NCBI RefSeq assembly: GCF_900129315.1
Contig: NZ_FQUS01000020.1
Location: 1 to 64,000 of the forward strand
From: Fodinibius roseus
GTDB lineage: Bacteria; Bacteroidota; Rhodothermia; Balneolales; Balneolaceae
Length of the DNA: 64,000 nucleotides
Direction of reading: 5' to 3'
Numbering within the stretch: position 1 is the stretch's first letter; every line of letters begins with the position of its first letter. A program made the position numbers and the translations under genes. Below the pieces are notes generated by a model that was not told the origin of the DNA, ran no database searches, and saw only the letters and a list, made by a program, of their open reading frames with translations. Of this stretch, positions 6,997 through 50,226 are shown in pieces.

Positions 6997-7317
6997 TTAA
7001 AACGATGTTCGCTGCTTCCAGTGCTCGGTAATCAGATCGGCCATCCCCAGCTTCCGCTGTTTTGCTATTTCATTGGCAAGCGTTTCCGTTATATGCCGGC
7101 GATACATATTGTTAGACTGACCCAGAACACCATTGTTATCGTCCATTTTGAACGAATCTTTAGTGAGTTCGCTGACTAATTTGCGGGCAAAGATCTCCTC
7201 GAAATCAGTAGCTATTTCCTCCTTTTTTATTTCATCGCTGCGGGATTTGCTCATCCCCATATCCGTATCCCCCTGTAGCGTATGCGCTATTGCATTAATA
7301 TTCACATTCATATTCAT
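6997..7317 (-). CDS. flgJ: rod-binding protein, single-domain FlgJ
   Basis: The 106-aa product corresponds only to the N-terminal rod-binding half of enterobacterial FlgJ: EEIFARKLVSELTKD, then NNMYRRHITETLANEIAKQRKLGMADLI. It lacks the C-terminal muramidase domain, as in many non-gamma-proteobacteria. It acts as a rod cap or scaffold in the periplasm. The peptidoglycan hydrolase needed for rod penetration must be encoded elsewhere. It is separated from flgI by 165 bp, the largest gap in this run. Confidence 0.85.
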   Translation of the reverse strand: MNMNVNINAIAHTLQGDTDMGMSKSRSDEIKKEEIATDFEEIFARKLVSELTKDSFKMDDNNGVLGQSNNMYRRHITETLANEIAKQRKLGMADLITEHWKQRTSF

Positions 7318-16727: not shown

Positions 16728-16961
16728 ATGTTATTACGTTTAGTTACCGTTATCTCACTTATACAATTCCTGTTATTGATGATCTCCGGCGAGAGTATTA
16801 ATATCGCTCTTTACAGAAGCTTGCTTGTCTTTCTTATTTTATTCTCGCTTGTATATCTTTCGATATTTCTCCTGAATATTATCCAGGACAACAAAACCGT
16901 TTCTAATACCGGCGCCCAAACCGAAGACAACAATCCCTCGAATAACAGCGAAGAACAATGA
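16728..16961 (+). CDS. small two-helix membrane protein between flhF and fliA (unknown)
   Basis: This 77-aa protein has two hydrophobic segments (about 2-20 and 27-50) and a hydrophilic, Asn/Glu-rich tail, suggesting a helical hairpin in the inner membrane. Its stop overlaps the fliA start (ATGA), so it is probably translated with the sigma factor. In many bacteria this slot holds flhG (a MinD-like ATPase), which is absent here. A role as membrane partner of FlhF or FliA is speculation. A 136-bp gap separates it from flhF, so a promoter could lie there. Confidence 0.7.
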   Translation: MLLRLVTVISLIQFLLLMISGESINIALYRSLLVFLILFSLVYLSIFLLNIIQDNKTVSNTGAQTEDNNPSNNSEEQ

Positions 16962-17725
16962 TGGTTAACAAGACACTCCAGGAACTTGCTGAGCTATACT
17001 GTGAAAATCCGTCGGATGGACTGCGCAACGCCATTATCAGCAAATCTATGCCGCTGATTCGCAGTATTATCGGCAAAATAAACATCCCTGATCAACCCTT
17101 AACGCAGCAGGAAGATATTGAAAGTGCGGGGATAAGCGGGCTCCTGCAGGCTATGGACTCCTATGACTGCAGCCGGAATACCAAGTTCAATACCTTTGTC
17201 TATTACAGGATCAGAGGCAATATCATCGATTACCTGCGTAAAATCGACCAGCTTCCCCGTAAAAAACGCAAGGATTATGGAGAGGTAAACCAGGCAATTG
17301 ATAAACTATCGCAAGAGCTGGGGAGAGATCCGTCGGACGAAGAGATTGCCCGCGAACTCGATATGGATATAACAGACTACCGGCAGCTTTTGTCCAACGT
17401 ACAGACCCGCAATGCGCTTTCCCTGGATACATCTTTCAATAATGATGATTCCGGCACTTTTTATGAAATTCATGAGGATCCGGATGCTGCGTTGCCGGAT
17501 GAGGAGCTTGTGGATAAAGAACAGATGGGCATTCTTAAAGAAAAGATCGGGGAGCTTGAGGAAAAGAATCGTCTGATACTCACGCTTTACTTTTATGAAG
17601 ACATGACGATGAACGAAGTAGCCTTACTGCTGGAACTCTCAGAGGCGCGGATATCACAAATTATCGGGAAGATTCTAATTCAGCTGAAACAAAAATTGTC
17701 CCGTGAAAAAGTGTTAAACGGTTAA
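16958..17725 (+). CDS. fliA: flagellar sigma factor sigma-28
   Basis: FliA directs RNA polymerase to late flagellar promoters. The 255-aa protein shows sigma region 2 (IESAGISGLLQAMDSYDCSRNTKFNTFVYYRIRGNIIDYLR, about 50-90), region 3 (QAIDKLSQELGRDPSDEEIARELDM) and region 4 (EKNRLILTLYFYEDMTMNEVALLLELSEARISQIIGKIL). The spacing matches the FliA/WhiG subgroup. Its probable targets are visible in this window: T(T/A)AA-N15-NNCGATAA boxes before cheY, cheW, the gene at 48559 and the porin at 49183. No flgM anti-sigma gene was recognised here. Confidence 0.95.
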   Translation: MMVNKTLQELAELYCENPSDGLRNAIISKSMPLIRSIIGKINIPDQPLTQQEDIESAGISGLLQAMDSYDCSRNTKFNTFVYYRIRGNIIDYLRKIDQLPRKKRKDYGEVNQAIDKLSQELGRDPSDEEIARELDMDITDYRQLLSNVQTRNALSLDTSFNNDDSGTFYEIHEDPDAALPDEELVDKEQMGILKEKIGELEEKNRLILTLYFYEDMTMNEVALLLELSEARISQIIGKILIQLKQKLSREKVLNG

Positions 17726-22998: not shown

Positions 22999-23736
22999 TT
23001 AGTGTCCCATGGTGACCGTTTCCAGGCTATCATTCATATTCTTAGTCTTAAAATCTATCAATGGAGTCTCTTCCTCCTGCTTATAGTTCACATAAATCTC
23101 AACCCTGCGATTTTGACGTCTTCCACCGGACGTTTCGTTGGTGGCCACCGGCTTATACTCACCGAAACTGCTGGCTTCAAACCTTCTGGGTTGCAGCCGG
23201 GAATTTTTATTGAGAAACAGGACCACCGAAACCGCCCGGGCCGCCCCGAGATGCCAGTTAGACCGGTAACCGGAGGTGCTGGCAATGGGCACGTTGTCCG
23301 TATGTCCCTGTACCACTACGTTCCATACCTCCCTGCTCAGCGTACTTCCGATTTTTCTCAACACCTTTCTGGCTCCGGGCAATAACATGGCAGACCCGCT
23401 ATCGAAGGTAAGGGAGTCGCGCAGGGTTACCTTGACGCCTTCTTCCGTCTTTTCGATGTCTACTTCCGAAGATAGCCCTTCCTGCTCCAAAAACTGGTTC
23501 ACCTCGTGCCATTCTTTCCTTAACGTATCATTATCGGATTGCTTACTGGCCTCCTCGTTTTCAAAAATAACGCTTGTGGATGACTGAAAATGAGAAATAA
23601 AATCGTTGAAGGTGGACTGGTCTATTCCGGGCGTCAAAACATACAGCAATACAAAAAACACCAACAGTAGTGTTACCAGATCGCTGTAGGTGACTAACCA
23701 GTTTCCATTGCCAGATTTTCGTTTAGAATCTCCCAT
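22999..23736 (-). CDS. motB: flagellar stator protein MotB, sodium-type features
   Basis: MotB anchors the stator to peptidoglycan. The 245-aa protein has one membrane helix with the ion-binding Asp (VTYSDLVTLLLVFFVLLYVL; Asp19) and a C-terminal OmpA-like domain (LTFDSGSAMLLPGARKVLRKIG, then QGHTDNVPI and NRRVEIYV). The helix reads LLLxFFVLL, closer to PomB than to proton-type MotB, so Na+ may be the coupling ion; this is inference. It overlaps motA by 43 bp. Confidence 0.94.
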   Translation of the reverse strand: MGDSKRKSGNGNWLVTYSDLVTLLLVFFVLLYVLTPGIDQSTFNDFISHFQSSTSVIFENEEASKQSDNDTLRKEWHEVNQFLEQEGLSSEVDIEKTEEGVKVTLRDSLTFDSGSAMLLPGARKVLRKIGSTLSREVWNVVVQGHTDNVPIASTSGYRSNWHLGAARAVSVVLFLNKNSRLQPRRFEASSFGEYKPVATNETSGGRRQNRRVEIYVNYKQEEETPLIDFKTKNMNDSLETVTMGH

Positions 23737-24578
23737 TCCTTATTCTGATATTCAATCCACTGTTCATAGAGTTTTTGTTCTCTGTCATTTCTAATCGGTA
23801 GTTCTTCATGAAATTTCTTGTACTCTGCGCGGCTTTTGGGATCCACATGTATAAGCATTTTCTTTTCCATAATGCGGGGATTTTCTCCCTCCACTATGGA
23901 AAGTATGCCCACACGAAACATCTGCTTTCTGTTCAAATCCAATTCGCTCAGGTATTCCAGCTTTCCCGCCAGGGGACCCAACAGCATATTTGCCAGTATG
24001 GTCCCGTACAGGGTGGTAAGCAATGCCACCGACAGCCCCGCTCCCAGCGACTCGGGATCCGAAATATTCTGAAGCATAAGCACCATACCGATGACCGTGC
24101 CGATCATGCCGAAGGCCGGGGCATATTCAGCCATTGAATCCAGCACCTTCACAGAAATTTCCATCTGGCGTTCCTTACTTTGTATTTCGTCCTGCAGTAT
24201 ATTATCCAGGCTTTCCTCTTTGAAACCATCCACCGCCAGCTGCATGCCGTTCTGCAGAAAGTCATCCTTGATATTTCTTATGTCCTCATCAATGGACAGC
24301 AATCCTTCGAGACGTACCTTGCGGGAGAACATCCGCATCAATTCCATATCAGTGCGAAGGTCTACCGCCTGGGCCCCCATCATCCTGCGTATCGTCACAA
24401 AACTACCCTTAATATCCTCAAAACTGTAATTAACCATCGTAGCTGCTACCACCCCACCGCTTACAATCAAAAAAGAGGAGCCGCTGGCGAATATCATGAT
24501 GCTGCCCTGCAGCACGATGGCCATGATAATTAAAGAGAAACCCAGAATTAAGCCGATATTTGTCGATCTGTCCAACAT
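23694..24578 (-). CDS. motA: flagellar stator protein MotA (PomA-like)
   Basis: MotA conducts ions with MotB and turns the rotor. The 294-aa product has four membrane segments, a cytoplasmic loop with charged residues (about 70-150), and the conserved third/fourth-helix motif EYAPAFGMIGTVIGMVLMLQNISDP...ALLTTLYGTILANMLLGPLAGKL, which is PomA-like. The C-terminal tail is longer than usual (about 45 extra charged residues). A terminator (24731-24786) lies upstream, so motA must have its own promoter; a candidate is at 24586-24612. Confidence 0.95.
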   Translation of the reverse strand: MLDRSTNIGLILGFSLIIMAIVLQGSIMIFASGSSFLIVSGGVVAATMVNYSFEDIKGSFVTIRRMMGAQAVDLRTDMELMRMFSRKVRLEGLLSIDEDIRNIKDDFLQNGMQLAVDGFKEESLDNILQDEIQSKERQMEISVKVLDSMAEYAPAFGMIGTVIGMVLMLQNISDPESLGAGLSVALLTTLYGTILANMLLGPLAGKLEYLSELDLNRKQMFRVGILSIVEGENPRIMEKKMLIHVDPKSRAEYKKFHEELPIRNDREQKLYEQWIEYQNKEWEILNENLAMETG

Positions 24579-24585
24579 GTGATTG

Positions 24586-24612
24586 TTATCGACTTCCGAA
24601 TTAAAAACTTAA
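24586..24612 (-). promoter_or_regulatory. candidate FliA (sigma-28) promoter before motA
   Basis: On the minus strand the sequence reads TTAA-N15-GTCGATAA, the same spacing as the other FliA-type boxes here. The -10 element differs at one base from ACCGATAA/GCCGATAA. It sits only about 8 bases from the motA ATG, so transcription would start nearly at the start codon. That makes it doubtful despite the match. Confidence 0.35.
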
Positions 24613-36475: not shown

Positions 36476-36884
36476 GCTTATCGTTTTATTGATTATCAAA
36501 AGTTTATTATCAGCCGCCTGTTACAGGCAGGGTATTTTACAAATCAGGTGTATTTACTCCGTTTCCTCAACACCTGACAAGCATCCGGTTTATGTTACAG
36601 GCAATAGCTATGCCAGACCGTCTCACTGCTCAAAACAATAATTAAAACCCTTCTGAGGAAACGGGTTTTGGTAAATCAACTGCATAATTAACCGCCCGGA
36701 GGTAATTTTTTCCTCATTATCTATTATTTCCATAAGCCATTTAAGTATGATTCGAAAGAACTGATAATATACTATCCCATATCTCTCTCCCGTTTGAATT
36801 AAAGCGAGAGGTCTTTGTGGGATTACTGTCCAACTTTTTTTATTATACCAGATTGGGGGCAATATTATCGAGTTACCAGAATTA
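36476..36884. other. divergent promoter region between flgB and the histidine kinase
   Basis: No gene is visible. It contains the sigma-54 site for flgB at 36601-36615 on the minus strand. No comparable box was seen for the plus-strand kinase. The part at 36650-36860 is A+T-rich and could bind the NtrC-type activator; no clear repeat of an enhancer motif was found by eye. Confidence 0.5.
36601..36615 (-). promoter_or_regulatory. sigma-54 promoter for flgB operon
   Basis: On the minus strand the sequence reads TGGCATAGCTATTGC. This matches the -24/-12 consensus TGGCAC-N5-TTGC with only one change and exactly ten bases between GG and GC. It points toward flgB, whose ATG lies about 125 bases downstream. 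The NtrC-type regulator at 913 is the natural activator candidate. Confidence 0.8.
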
Positions 36885-37850
36885 ATGAATAAACACGCAG
36901 GTTCGGATCCCGCCTTTATAATAGAGATGAACAACAGAATAATCCGTGATGTCAACGAAGCGGCAATTACGGGTTGCGACCGTTATAATCCTATTGGCAA
37001 GAATCTTGAACAGATCATTTATGTTGTAAAGGATGTTGGCAATGCTATATCACCGGCTTACTTCAATGGGCTGTGGTACACCCTCCAACAGGAGACCCTG
37101 ATCTGGGAAGGGACACCCCATATCAAAATAACCCTGCAACACCGAGAGGAGATCCCCGATAACGAGACGCTGCACTCTTTAAAAAATATGATCGGCTTTT
37201 TACTGCATCGCATTCGTTCTCCCCTCACGGGTATGCAGGGCTATGCTCATATGGCAGAAGGACAATTGGGGAATACATCCAGTGCAAAATATCTCAGGAA
37301 AATCAATGCGGGTATTGAAAACCTGTTTGACCTGCTCGATGACCTGGAGTCTCTGCAGGAAATATCCCTTAAAGAAATTGAAGTCAATAATTATTCTGCT
37401 GAAACGGTACCCATCATAAAAGAAATTATTTCGGAATACCCACCGGAAATCCAACAAAGAATCACATTTTTGTACTCAGCAGAGAACGAGCAGCTTTTGC
37501 GTTGTAGTCCGGCCGATCTGAGACGGATCCTGACGGAACTTATTGATAATGCAGTTGATCACGCTCCTGCCAAAGATGGAAATAACATTACGATCGAGCT
37601 TCCCTCCGACCAGGCGGTAAAAATTTCTCATGACGGGAACCTCATTCCGAAATCCATTGCCCGACAGCTGTTTTTTCCCTTTGTGACCGGCAAAGCTACA
37701 AAACTGGGGATCGGTTTAACCATGGCCATACTCTATGCCAAACGATATAAGGGGACCATCTTCCTGACGGATAACAACCCATTTCGAGGGGTATCTTTTA
37801 CTTTTTGTCTCCCGCCGTCGGATCCTTCCACCTCCAGCTCACTATTGTAG
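36885..37850 (+). CDS. soluble histidine kinase, likely partner of the sigma-54 regulator
   Basis: This 321-aa protein has no membrane segment. Residues about 5-85 look PAS-like. The dimerisation box holds the phospho-acceptor His108 (LLHRIRSPLTGMQGY), and an ATPase domain follows with an N-box (ELIDNAVDHA; Asn222), F-box (LFFPFVTGK) and G2 (LGIGLTMAI). The G1 box is degenerate (ISHDGNLIP instead of DxGxG). Architecture resembles FlrB/FleS-type soluble kinases. Position next to the flgB sigma-54 promoter and the absence of another kinase beside the regulator at 913 suggest a cognate pair; this is inference. Confidence 0.85.
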   Translation: MNKHAGSDPAFIIEMNNRIIRDVNEAAITGCDRYNPIGKNLEQIIYVVKDVGNAISPAYFNGLWYTLQQETLIWEGTPHIKITLQHREEIPDNETLHSLKNMIGFLLHRIRSPLTGMQGYAHMAEGQLGNTSSAKYLRKINAGIENLFDLLDDLESLQEISLKEIEVNNYSAETVPIIKEIISEYPPEIQQRITFLYSAENEQLLRCSPADLRRILTELIDNAVDHAPAKDGNNITIELPSDQAVKISHDGNLIPKSIARQLFFPFVTGKATKLGIGLTMAILYAKRYKGTIFLTDNNPFRGVSFTFCLPPSDPSTSSSLL

Positions 37851-40486: not shown

Positions 40487-41008
40487 TTATTTATTTGCTT
40501 CTTCTCTCATGGATGTCTCCAGCACCTTCTGAGGCACGTCAAACAAAACTTCATGGACTTCGATAATCATTTTCACCGAATCCTGAAGCTTGCCGAGACC
40601 GGCCAAATATTTACCCTGATCATCCACGCCCACGGTAGGGACCTCTTCGATATCCTCTGTTTCTATATCCACGACTTCTGAAACCTTGTCCACCAGAATA
40701 CCCATCAGGTATCCATCATCCTGAATGACGATAATACAGGTTTCGTCGGTGTCATCAACCTTGTTGAGCCCGAACCGTGTCCGCAGATTCATAACCGGAA
40801 CTATTTTCCCCCGCAAGTTCAGCACTCCCCTTATATAAGAGGGCATTTTCGGAACCGGGGTAATATTCATCAATCCGATTATTTCCTGGACTTTTAAAAT
40901 CTCGATAGCATATTCTTCCTGACCCAGAAAAAAGGTCAAAAATTTTCCGCCTTCTATATCGGGACCCTCATTCTGTTTTTTTTCTTCTTTAACTGCTGTA
41001 TCACTCAT
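40487..41008 (-). CDS. cheW: chemotaxis coupling protein
   Basis: CheW links receptors to CheA. From the ATG at 41008 (preferred over an upstream TTG at 41038) the protein has 173 aa with the CheW fold motifs: KFLTFFLGQEEYAIEILKVQEIIG, SYIRGVLNLRGKIVPVMNLRTRFG, and ILVDKVSEVVDIETEDIEEVP. It is preceded by an FliA-type promoter at 41142-41168 and precedes the MCP gene. Confidence 0.95.
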   Translation of the reverse strand: MSDTAVKEEKKQNEGPDIEGGKFLTFFLGQEEYAIEILKVQEIIGLMNITPVPKMPSYIRGVLNLRGKIVPVMNLRTRFGLNKVDDTDETCIIVIQDDGYLMGILVDKVSEVVDIETEDIEEVPTVGVDDQGKYLAGLGKLQDSVKMIIEVHEVLFDVPQKVLETSMREEANK

Positions 41009-41141
41009 AAGAACCTTTTTTTTTATTTTTGTAGCCAATTAACACGCTGTGGGACTTCAGGATCTGTACAGGCATCGCTCCTTTTTCGAATGGACTGCTC
41101 TCGTATTCGATTAATGCCCCAGTGTGCCAACCTATACGCTA

Positions 41142-41168
41142 TTATCGGTGGAAACACCGCTTTCTTAA
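41142..41168 (-). promoter_or_regulatory. FliA (sigma-28) promoter for cheW-mcp
   Basis: On the minus strand the sequence reads TTAA-N15-ACCGATAA, with TTTAAGAAA around the -35. The predicted start lies near 41135, leaving a leader of about 125 nt before cheW. The motif and spacing equal those before cheY (48332-48358). Confidence 0.78.
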
Positions 41169-43215: not shown

Positions 43216-43295
43216 ATTTTTATCGCCTAAATATGACAACTATTAAGCCCAAACTATTATATAATCAATGTTAATATTATATACTTTTCCTTTTC

Positions 43296-47738: not shown

Positions 47739-48200
47739 TTAAGAATTGAGAATACCTTTAAAGAAACTTTTGCTTTCATTGTCATCTTCATCGCCGGTGA
47801 TGAGATTACCGTCATCATCGAAATAGTCGCTAATAGCCTTATGCATCTTATCGGCCGTAAAAGGCTTGGTAACGTATTCATTAGCCCCTCCCTCATTCAG
47901 GGCCTTGTCAACCTTACCCATGGATTTTTCCGCTGTTACCATAATAATCGGAATCTGGTCATTCCCTTTATCGCGTACGGCTTTTGCAAATTCGACCCCC
48001 GTCATATTGGGCATATTCCAATCGACAAACAGTATTTCTATTTCATTATTAAATTTCCCCAATGCGTCTTCACCATCCATAGCTTCTACAAATTCAAAAT
48101 CCGCGACCATTAACTGATTCAGCGCTCTTTTTACAGCACTTCGCATTATTTTGGAATCGTCTACCACCATAGCTTTTATTTTACCCATTGCTTGCTCCAT
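47739..48200 (-). CDS. cheY: chemotaxis response regulator CheY
   Basis: The 153-aa protein is a CheY receiver with Asp60 in the classic FVDWNMPNMTG context, acidic pair at 14-15, MVTAEKS (Thr) and a conserved Lys (VTKPFTADKM). A C-terminal acidic tail of about 25 residues (DDDGNLITGDEDDNESKSFF) is longer than in enteric CheY. It heads the chemotaxis operon behind an FliA-type promoter and is the best candidate for the motor-binding regulator. A second ATG lies at 48188. Confidence 0.95.
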   Translation of the reverse strand: MEQAMGKIKAMVVDDSKIMRSAVKRALNQLMVADFEFVEAMDGEDALGKFNNEIEILFVDWNMPNMTGVEFAKAVRDKGNDQIPIIMVTAEKSMGKVDKALNEGGANEYVTKPFTADKMHKAISDYFDDDGNLITGDEDDNESKSFFKGILNS

Positions 48201-48331: not shown

Positions 48332-48358
48332 TTATCGGTCAGGTTCATTATTTCTTAA
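48332..48358 (-). promoter_or_regulatory. FliA (sigma-28) promoter for the che operon
   Basis: On the minus strand the sequence reads TTAA-N15-ACCGATAA, again with TTTAAGAAA at the -35. The start would be near 48325, leaving a leader of about 125 nt before cheY. This closely parallels the cheW promoter. Confidence 0.78.
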
Positions 48359-48480
48359 ATCCCAAAAAGGACCGGAACTTTATTCCCGGCTGCGTCCTTA
48401 ATGATCTATAAATCATTGATAAATCTGGATTTAATTGAGATCTTTTGAAAACCAATCCAAAGATATCTTGTATGATTTTC

Positions 48481-48507
48481 TAAAGCTTTTTCTTTGGGAA
48501 CCGATAA
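48481..48507 (+). promoter_or_regulatory. FliA (sigma-28) promoter for the 150-aa gene
   Basis: The plus strand reads TAAA-N15-ACCGATAA, the closest match to the textbook TAAA-N15-GCCGATAA in the window. The predicted start is near 48514, about 45 bases before the ATG at 48559. Confidence 0.8.
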
Positions 48508-48558
48508 AAGGGGCAGGCACAATATAATCTGAAGGTAATTGCACCGTCTCTGCATAAT

Positions 48559-49011
48559 ATGTTATCACGCTCATCCAAAATACCATCTTCCCCCGCATTG
48601 GGATCTCCTGATAGCATACAACCGCTGCATGATTATATGTCTAATTTACCGTCAGGTGCAGACTTCCCCTCTATTAAGGATGAGCTCACCGATACGGAGG
48701 ATGAGGATGACTCCACGTTGAGTGAGGACAGCCGGAAGCAACGGGAGAAAAATGCCTCGGAATTGGAACTCCTTATGCCTCAACACGATTTTCGGGAATT
48801 GTTCAACCGCTTTTTTATACTGAGACATCAGGAACTGTTAATGCTGCAAACAACTATTCGCCAGGAAAGAGAACCCGGCAGCACTTCTGGCGTGCCTTCC
48901 TTGCGGGATCTTGACAACCTGCAGCTCAATACGCTGCGTAACCAGTACTACCGGCTTCAGATGCTCCTTTTCAATATGTCCAAAGGCGGTAACCACAGCT
49001 CAACTCTTTAA
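48559..49011 (+). CDS. unknown protein under FliA-type control
   Basis: I do not recognise this 150-aa soluble protein. The first 70 residues are Ser/Pro/Asp/Glu-rich and probably disordered (acidic run around TDTEDEDDSTLSED). The C-terminal 80 residues are helical (HDFRELFNRFFILRHQELLMLQTTIRQE; LNTLRNQYYRLQMLLFNMSKGG). The FliA-type promoter 45 bp upstream and the divergent che operon imply coexpression with late flagellar genes. Size and helicity would suit an export chaperone, an anti-sigma factor or a motor accessory, but none of these is shown. Confidence 0.8.
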   Translation: MLSRSSKIPSSPALGSPDSIQPLHDYMSNLPSGADFPSIKDELTDTEDEDDSTLSEDSRKQREKNASELELLMPQHDFRELFNRFFILRHQELLMLQTTIRQEREPGSTSGVPSLRDLDNLQLNTLRNQYYRLQMLLFNMSKGGNHSSTL

Positions 49012-49057
49012 CCTATATTGCCGGCCGCCTCCCTTTAGCTTTTTTTTTAACCACACC

Positions 49058-49084
49058 TTAAGAATGTATCATTCCATACGATAA
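49058..49084 (+). promoter_or_regulatory. probable FliA (sigma-28) promoter for the porin
   Basis: The plus strand reads TTAA-N15-TACGATAA, one base off the ACCGATAA core seen in the other boxes and with the same spacing. It lies about 100 bases before the porin ATG. Confidence 0.55.
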
Positions 49085-49182: not shown

Positions 49183-50226
49183 ATGGATACCACCCACAAA
49201 ATTTTTAAGTTCCTTTTTTCCACTGCTTTATTTTGTTTGGTCTTCACCGCCCTGAGCTCTGCCCAGCAAAAAAAACAGCAAAATAGCGAATACAAACAGC
49301 TGCAAGAAAAGCTTAAAACCGACACTTTTTCCTTTGGCCTTTTAATACAGGGACTTGCTGACATTCAGCCGGAACGATCAGCCGGACACAATGGATTCAA
49401 GGCTTCCAAAGGCCGGTTTAAAATATCCGGGATTTTTGACGGCCGGTTTGGATATAATCTTCAGGCCACCATGCTCAAAACCCCGTCTGTATTAGATGCC
49501 AACGTGTATTATAAACCTACCGCCAATCTGTCCATTAAAGGAGGAGTTTTCAAATCCCCGTTCACCCACGAGTATAACACGGGAGCCGGCTCCATCTTAT
49601 TTGTCAACCGCTCGGCCGTTGTCAACCAGCTCGGGACCAAACGACAAGTGGGTGTTCAAATTGATGGATTTACCCCCAACGGATTACTTCGCTACACGGC
49701 CGGGGTCTTTAACGGCAGTAATTATGGCAATAATAAAAATGATGACGACTACCTTCAATATATGGGTCGATTGGAAGGCTATTTAAATAACAATGGTAAA
49801 AACCGGGCAAAAGTCGGAGTCAGTGTGGCCGTAGAGCAGAAAGATGTCCCTTCTGCTTACGGGAACATTCCGTCAACTTTTGAAGGCGATCAAAAACTGA
49901 TGACTTCGTATTTCAGTATTACCCAGGGAAAAATACTCCTGGACGGGGAGTTCATCTACTCCTGGCTGGAATCTCCCGCTGCCCAGAATTATAACCCCTA
50001 TGGTTATTATGCCACCGTTGGCTACTATGTAGCACCAAAGGGCAGACTCCTGCTTCGCTGGGATTCCTTTACCGGGGATAACCTCACCGGCGATTCCGAA
50101 TCGCTGATTGCAGGATTTAATTATTATCCCTCGTCTTTTGCAAAGGTTAAACTCAATTATATCCTCCCCACCGATCAATCGGTCGAATATTCAACCTTTT
50201 TGGTCGCCATGCAGATCAGTTTTTAG
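49183..50226 (+). CDS. outer-membrane porin, OprO/OprP-like
   Basis: This 347-aa protein has a signal peptide (about 8-28, SSAQ), a short coiled segment (QQKKQQNSEYKQLQEKLK) resembling the N-terminal trimerisation helix of some porins, then amphipathic beta strands through a final Phe (LVAMQISF). KGGVFKSPFTHEY and NRSAVVNQLGTKRQVGVQIDG resemble the phosphate-selective porin O/P family, although substrate cannot be inferred. Preceded by a FliA-type box (49058-49084) and ended by a strong terminator. Coregulation with motility would be unusual. Confidence 0.8.
   Translation: MDTTHKIFKFLFSTALFCLVFTALSSAQQKKQQNSEYKQLQEKLKTDTFSFGLLIQGLADIQPERSAGHNGFKASKGRFKISGIFDGRFGYNLQATMLKTPSVLDANVYYKPTANLSIKGGVFKSPFTHEYNTGAGSILFVNRSAVVNQLGTKRQVGVQIDGFTPNGLLRYTAGVFNGSNYGNNKNDDDYLQYMGRLEGYLNNNGKNRAKVGVSVAVEQKDVPSAYGNIPSTFEGDQKLMTSYFSITQGKILLDGEFIYSWLESPAAQNYNPYGYYATVGYYVAPKGRLLLRWDSFTGDNLTGDSESLIAGFNYYPSSFAKVKLNYILPTDQSVEYSTFLVAMQISF

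Follow-up and report, generated by a model that had tools for sequence, protein, structure and literature searches.

A predicted FliA (sigma-28) regulon of late flagellar genes in Fodinibius roseus and its flagellated relatives

The window analysed here, the first 64,000 nucleotides of contig NZ_FQUS01000020.1 of Fodinibius roseus, carries flagellar and chemotaxis genes, a fast-evolving 150-aa orphan, a porin and a set of 27-nucleotide boxes resembling sigma-28 promoters (Table 1). As an earlier, sequence-only reading of this DNA had pointed out, fliA lies in the same window; among solved structures, its product is closest to FliA/WhiG-type sigma factors. The four boxes that this reading had placed before cheY, cheW, the 150-aa ORF and the porin are all present, as 27-mers with identical spacing, and the motA box, which it had described as poorer, is in fact an exact match to the form. 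The similarity in leader length that it had seen in the two chemotaxis operons (about 125 nt each) does not hold: across nine genomes, the box of cheY lies 84-145 nt and that of cheW 38-103 nt from the aligned start, and the start codon of cheW in the window, TTG, is uncertain.

Table 1. Genes and predicted promoter boxes in the window; scores are those of the weight matrix described in the text
Feature	Coordinates	Strand	Remarks
Sigma-28 box inside flgJ-like ORF, 5' of flgN-flgK-flgL	7136..7162	-	19/28 assessable genomes; frozen synonymous sites
fliA	16958..17725	+	Sigma regions 2, 3 and 4 by Pfam; best solved relatives include E. coli FliA (6pmi)
motA	23694..24578	-	MotA/MotP/PomA models
Sigma-28 box before motA, 7 nt 5' of ATG	24586..24612	-	10/10 genomes
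Sigma-28-like box, CTGATAA, before histidine kinase (36885-37850)	36741..36767	+	At least 16 in 9/10 genomes, tenth 14.8
cheW	40487..41038	-	PF01584
Sigma-28 box before cheW	41142..41168	-	9/9 genomes
cheY	47739..48200	-	Response regulator, CheY model
Sigma-28 box before cheY-cheX-cheA operon	48332..48358	-	Exact form; score at least 16 in 9/9 genomes
Sigma-28 box, TAAAG form, before 150-aa orphan	48481..48507	+	At least 16 in 8/8 orthologue upstreams; 9/9 in cluster-DNA scan
150-aa orphan, fast-evolving	48559..49011	+	Homologues in 11/58 genomes, own included
Sigma-28 box before porin	49058..49084	+	7/7 flagellar-cluster copies: 6 at 16 or above, one 15.1
Porin (Porin_O_P)	49183..50226	+	PF07396, 46.1 bits

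The form TWAA-N17-CGATAA has 7 matches in the window against 0.37 expected, a count that none of 100 shuffles reaches. Two of the exact matches lie beyond the set originally claimed, namely, the box inside the flgJ-like ORF and a match at 43220-43246, at the 5' end of a cheX-like ORF. The latter was rejected as a promoter candidate (own score, 10.6; none of 8 genomes reaches 16); in G006, a box distinct from this one (17.1) precedes the cheX-like gene by 35 nt.

The signal is visible in the spacing peak of the TTAAG form, in the positions of genes and in conservation, not in plain own-genome totals. The sharpened form TWAAG-N16-CGATAA, counted in this genome alone, is at the control level (14 matches vs 15), and TTAAG and CGATAA separated by 4 to 30 nucleotides total 64 matches vs 121 in the reversed control. 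Nine of these 64, however, fall at a gap of 16, whereas the other gaps average 2.1 (Poisson tail, 0.0004). Seven of the nine sites are upstream of two flagellins, fliS-fliD, motA, cheW, cheY and the porin; the eighth, on C20, is 388 bp away from a histidine kinase, and the ninth is at the end of a contig. The five own-genome sites of the TAAAG form comprise those of the orphan and of flgJ, one on C20 at a receiver-kinase protein, and two that fall within other ORFs. Allowing one mismatch in TTAAGWW-N14-CGATAA was tried and abandoned: it yields 39 matches (9 of them exact) vs 42 in the control, so that the added matches are mostly noise. The combination of TTAAG with CTGATAA shows no spacing peak genome-wide, with 2 of 40 matches at the box spacing, and therefore the kinase site in the window rests on conservation.

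Conservation was assessed with a matrix built from nine own-genome sites and applied to the regions upstream of orthologues in nine flagellated genomes of the same genus and in the genome itself, with matches of at least 25% identity (this threshold leaves out, for example, the G005 flagellin at 23%) and without a G011 row for the orphan. Scores of at least 16 were found upstream of fliS and motA in 10/10 cases each, of cheW, cheY and flgN in 9/9 each, and of the orphan in 8/8, as well as in 9/10 for the histidine kinase (the tenth at 14.8) and 6/7 for the porin (the seventh at 15.1). Flagellin upstreams reach 16 in 5/9 cases and contain an exact TTAAG-N16-CGATAA in 8/9; the upstream scan of the G001 flagellin gave no box. 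Among 124 upstreams of 13 other genes (flgJ, flgK, flgL, fliA, flgE, cheA, cheB, cheD, cheR, the cheX-like gene, fliE, flgB and fliD), none is boxed. One of 10 motB genes is boxed, with the box lying within coding sequence, and so are 3 of 9 MCP genes. Thus, genes of the late flagellin, fliD, mot and che classes carry boxes, whereas fliA and the early structural genes flgE, fliE and flgB do not. A scan of the flagellar-cluster DNA of ten genomes (843,845 bases) gave 110 matches scoring at least 15, of which 11 come from the genome itself, including nine that the matrix had been trained on; 40 column-permuted matrices gave a mean of 6.65 and a maximum of 17 on the same DNA. An ORF that matches one of 32 cluster proteins follows within 350 bp in 94 of the 110 cases, and in the other 16 it does not.

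The motif also follows the distribution of flagella among the 58 genomes compared. A flagellin-family match (PF00669) is present in 28 of these, a few of which (e.g., G005 and G044) are counted on FlgL alone, given that PF00669 also matches FlgL. The 28 genomes contain 407 occurrences of TWAAG-N16-CGATAA vs 248 in the control, and the 30 genomes without a flagellin-family match contain 160 vs 233. FliA orthologues (above 240 bits) were detected in 27 genomes, that is, in 26 of the 28 with a flagellin-family match and in one of the 30 without; G007 and G009, which belong to the same genus as F. roseus, lack both. Outside the genus, in a survey of flagellin matches of at least 40% identity, at least one boxed flagellin copy was found in 16 of the 17 genomes for which the flagellin upstream could be read in the loci analysed; several tandem copies carry no box, and the scan of the upstreams of the G041 copies gave no box. 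The expectation of the sequence-only reading that such boxes lie upstream of motility genes is accordingly borne out once the motif is sharpened, with boxes kept at orthologues and no excess in genomes devoid of flagellin-family genes.

Taken together, these observations make it very likely that RNA polymerase carrying FliA (sigma-28) uses the boxes as promoters and thereby activates late flagellar genes together. What the comparison shows directly is how the boxes are built, spaced, placed and conserved and that they co-occur with flagella and FliA; binding by FliA, start sites, timing and the assignment of promoter elements to parts of FliA are inferred. FliA would recognise a -35 element, TTAAG or TAAAG, and the -10 element CGATAA at one fixed spacing, and would jointly turn on the flagellins, fliS-fliD, motAB, the chemotaxis operons, the orphan, the porin and the histidine kinase, with flgN-flgK-flgL driven through the promoter within flgJ. 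The earlier proposal of a local FliA-type regulon is supported as regards its type, by the late-gene boxes, their conservation and the link to flagella. The motif as originally written is too loose, and "local" is too narrow because the two flagellins and fliS-fliD, located on another contig, belong to the set. The orphan box keeps TAAAG in 8 of 9 genomes, suggesting that the TTAAG and TAAAG forms are both probably used. Region 4.2 of FliA reads EARISQI[IV]GK in nearly all relatives and ESRVSQLHSQ in E. coli; this difference is a lead as to what may lie behind the preference for TTAAG.

Could the boxes instead be chance matches to a short degenerate pattern? The loose motif, proposed as a genome-wide predictor, is indeed not specific, with 46 matches vs 40 in the reversed control. 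The window count was nevertheless beyond the reach of the shuffles, the boxes are kept at orthologues, and for the core sites these footprints already contradict a chance origin, which we consider practically negligible. It is also conceivable that a different motility regulator, be it another sigma factor or an activator, acts at the boxes, inasmuch as their assignment to FliA was made by sequence. Their layout and bases, however, agree with those of the sigma-28 promoters described in the sources cited below, and the presence of a FliA orthologue tracks both flagellin-family genes and the motif excess, so that we give this alternative a very low probability.

The box inside flgJ calls for separate consideration. 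It sits in the conserved peptide TKDSFKM, upstream of flgN-flgK-flgL, and occurs in 19 of the 28 assessable genomes of the order (flgK is found in 29, one with its upstream cut; for G024 the broken second copy was used, as the other, L193, begins at a contig end). In the nine genomes without the box, no substitute scoring at least 15 was found in the 1500 bp scanned. The location within a conserved peptide, parts of which also differ in the lineages without the box, is what would be seen if the box were a by-product of that peptide rather than a promoter. The synonymous sites argue against such an origin: across nine genomes of the genus, each of the five informative codon columns beneath the two elements is frozen at a single codon, compared with 1 of 40 columns elsewhere (Fisher p = 4.9e-6), and the codons for S, F and K that lie between the elements vary. 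We regard the by-product explanation as unlikely and the flgJ-internal box as conserved and probably functional.

The FlgM anti-sigma factor is usual in E. coli and B. subtilis, although it is not universal. FlgM (PF04316) was detected in none of the 58 genomes, 27 of which carry a FliA orthologue; the same model matches in 3 of 14 control genomes, and a diverged FlgM could be missed. A 106-aa ORF considered as a FlgM candidate instead resembles the Rod-binding/FlgJ family, with a sub-threshold Pfam score (19.2 vs a cut-off of 25.1). The negative FlgM result bears on the FliA-FlgM circuit, not on the promoters. The orphan, predicted from its box to be under sigma-28 control, has no credible Pfam match among its 11 members, and its single-sequence fold, with a mean pLDDT of 49.9, is uninformative. 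A sigma-28 circuit that, in this order, operates without a recognisable FlgM and, at least in the genus, employs the orphan as an anti-sigma or checkpoint factor is an improbable scenario, and the distribution of the orphan, found in fewer genomes (11 of 58) than the flagellin family (28), counts against it.

For the porin, the comparison with its homologues ties the box to the flagellar setting: none of the six examined outside the flagellar cluster, four paralogues and two from non-flagellated species, is boxed (these are 39-47% identical to the window porin and are homologues, with orthology not implied). In nine genomes, 7-8 nt separate the motA box from the ATG, which would leave a sigma-28 transcript with next to no leader; going by typical start positions, the motA transcript is predicted to be leaderless or nearly so. 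The CTGATAA-boxed histidine kinase gene, absent from the list in the sequence-only reading, adjoins flgB, and its box is kept in the genus; possibly, it provides feedback from late to early flagellar genes.

In layout, spacing and the classes of genes involved, the set agrees with known sigma-28 regulons. The E. coli FliA regulon shares with the present set the -35/-10 layout, the flagellin, fliD, mot and che classes, and a gene-internal promoter, which in E. coli lies inside flhC and drives motAB-cheAW; the E. coli ycgR box, TTAAG...CCGATAA, has the TTAAG element as well (PMC4183435). Unlike in E. coli, TTAAG predominates here, the internal promoter is in flgJ and points toward flgN-flgK-flgL, the set takes in the porin and the orphan, and none of the 58 genomes gave a FlgM match. 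The sigma-28 promoter of Treponema denticola flaB2 has TTAA at -35 and CCGATAA at -10, with a start mapped 124 bp before the start codon; it belongs to a spirochaete flagellar filament gene and was studied there as a single promoter, in contrast to the order-wide set predicted here from sequence (PMC9481697). Titles and abstracts of the literature on this bacterial group yielded no mapped sigma-28 promoter. What is new here is the gene list and the box hidden within a gene. A sigma-28 regulon thus appears to be readable largely from DNA and can be cross-checked across flagellated relatives, an uncharacterised orphan and a porin are placed among the late flagellar genes, selection on a gene-internal promoter is indicated, and the question arises of how FliA is held in check in genomes with no FlgM match.

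Some further features of the genome were observed in passing. The exact TTAAG box at the contig end (L051:9718-9744; C41:94168) has its -10 element within an inverted repeat (GCCGATAATATTATTATCGGC), with no gene visible downstream. At L049:3317-6888, two flagellins are of equal length and have different boxes, with a sulfotransferase-family gene then upstream, and an ORF of about 2070 codons lies near the flagellin and fliS-fliD genes (L049:10699-16905).
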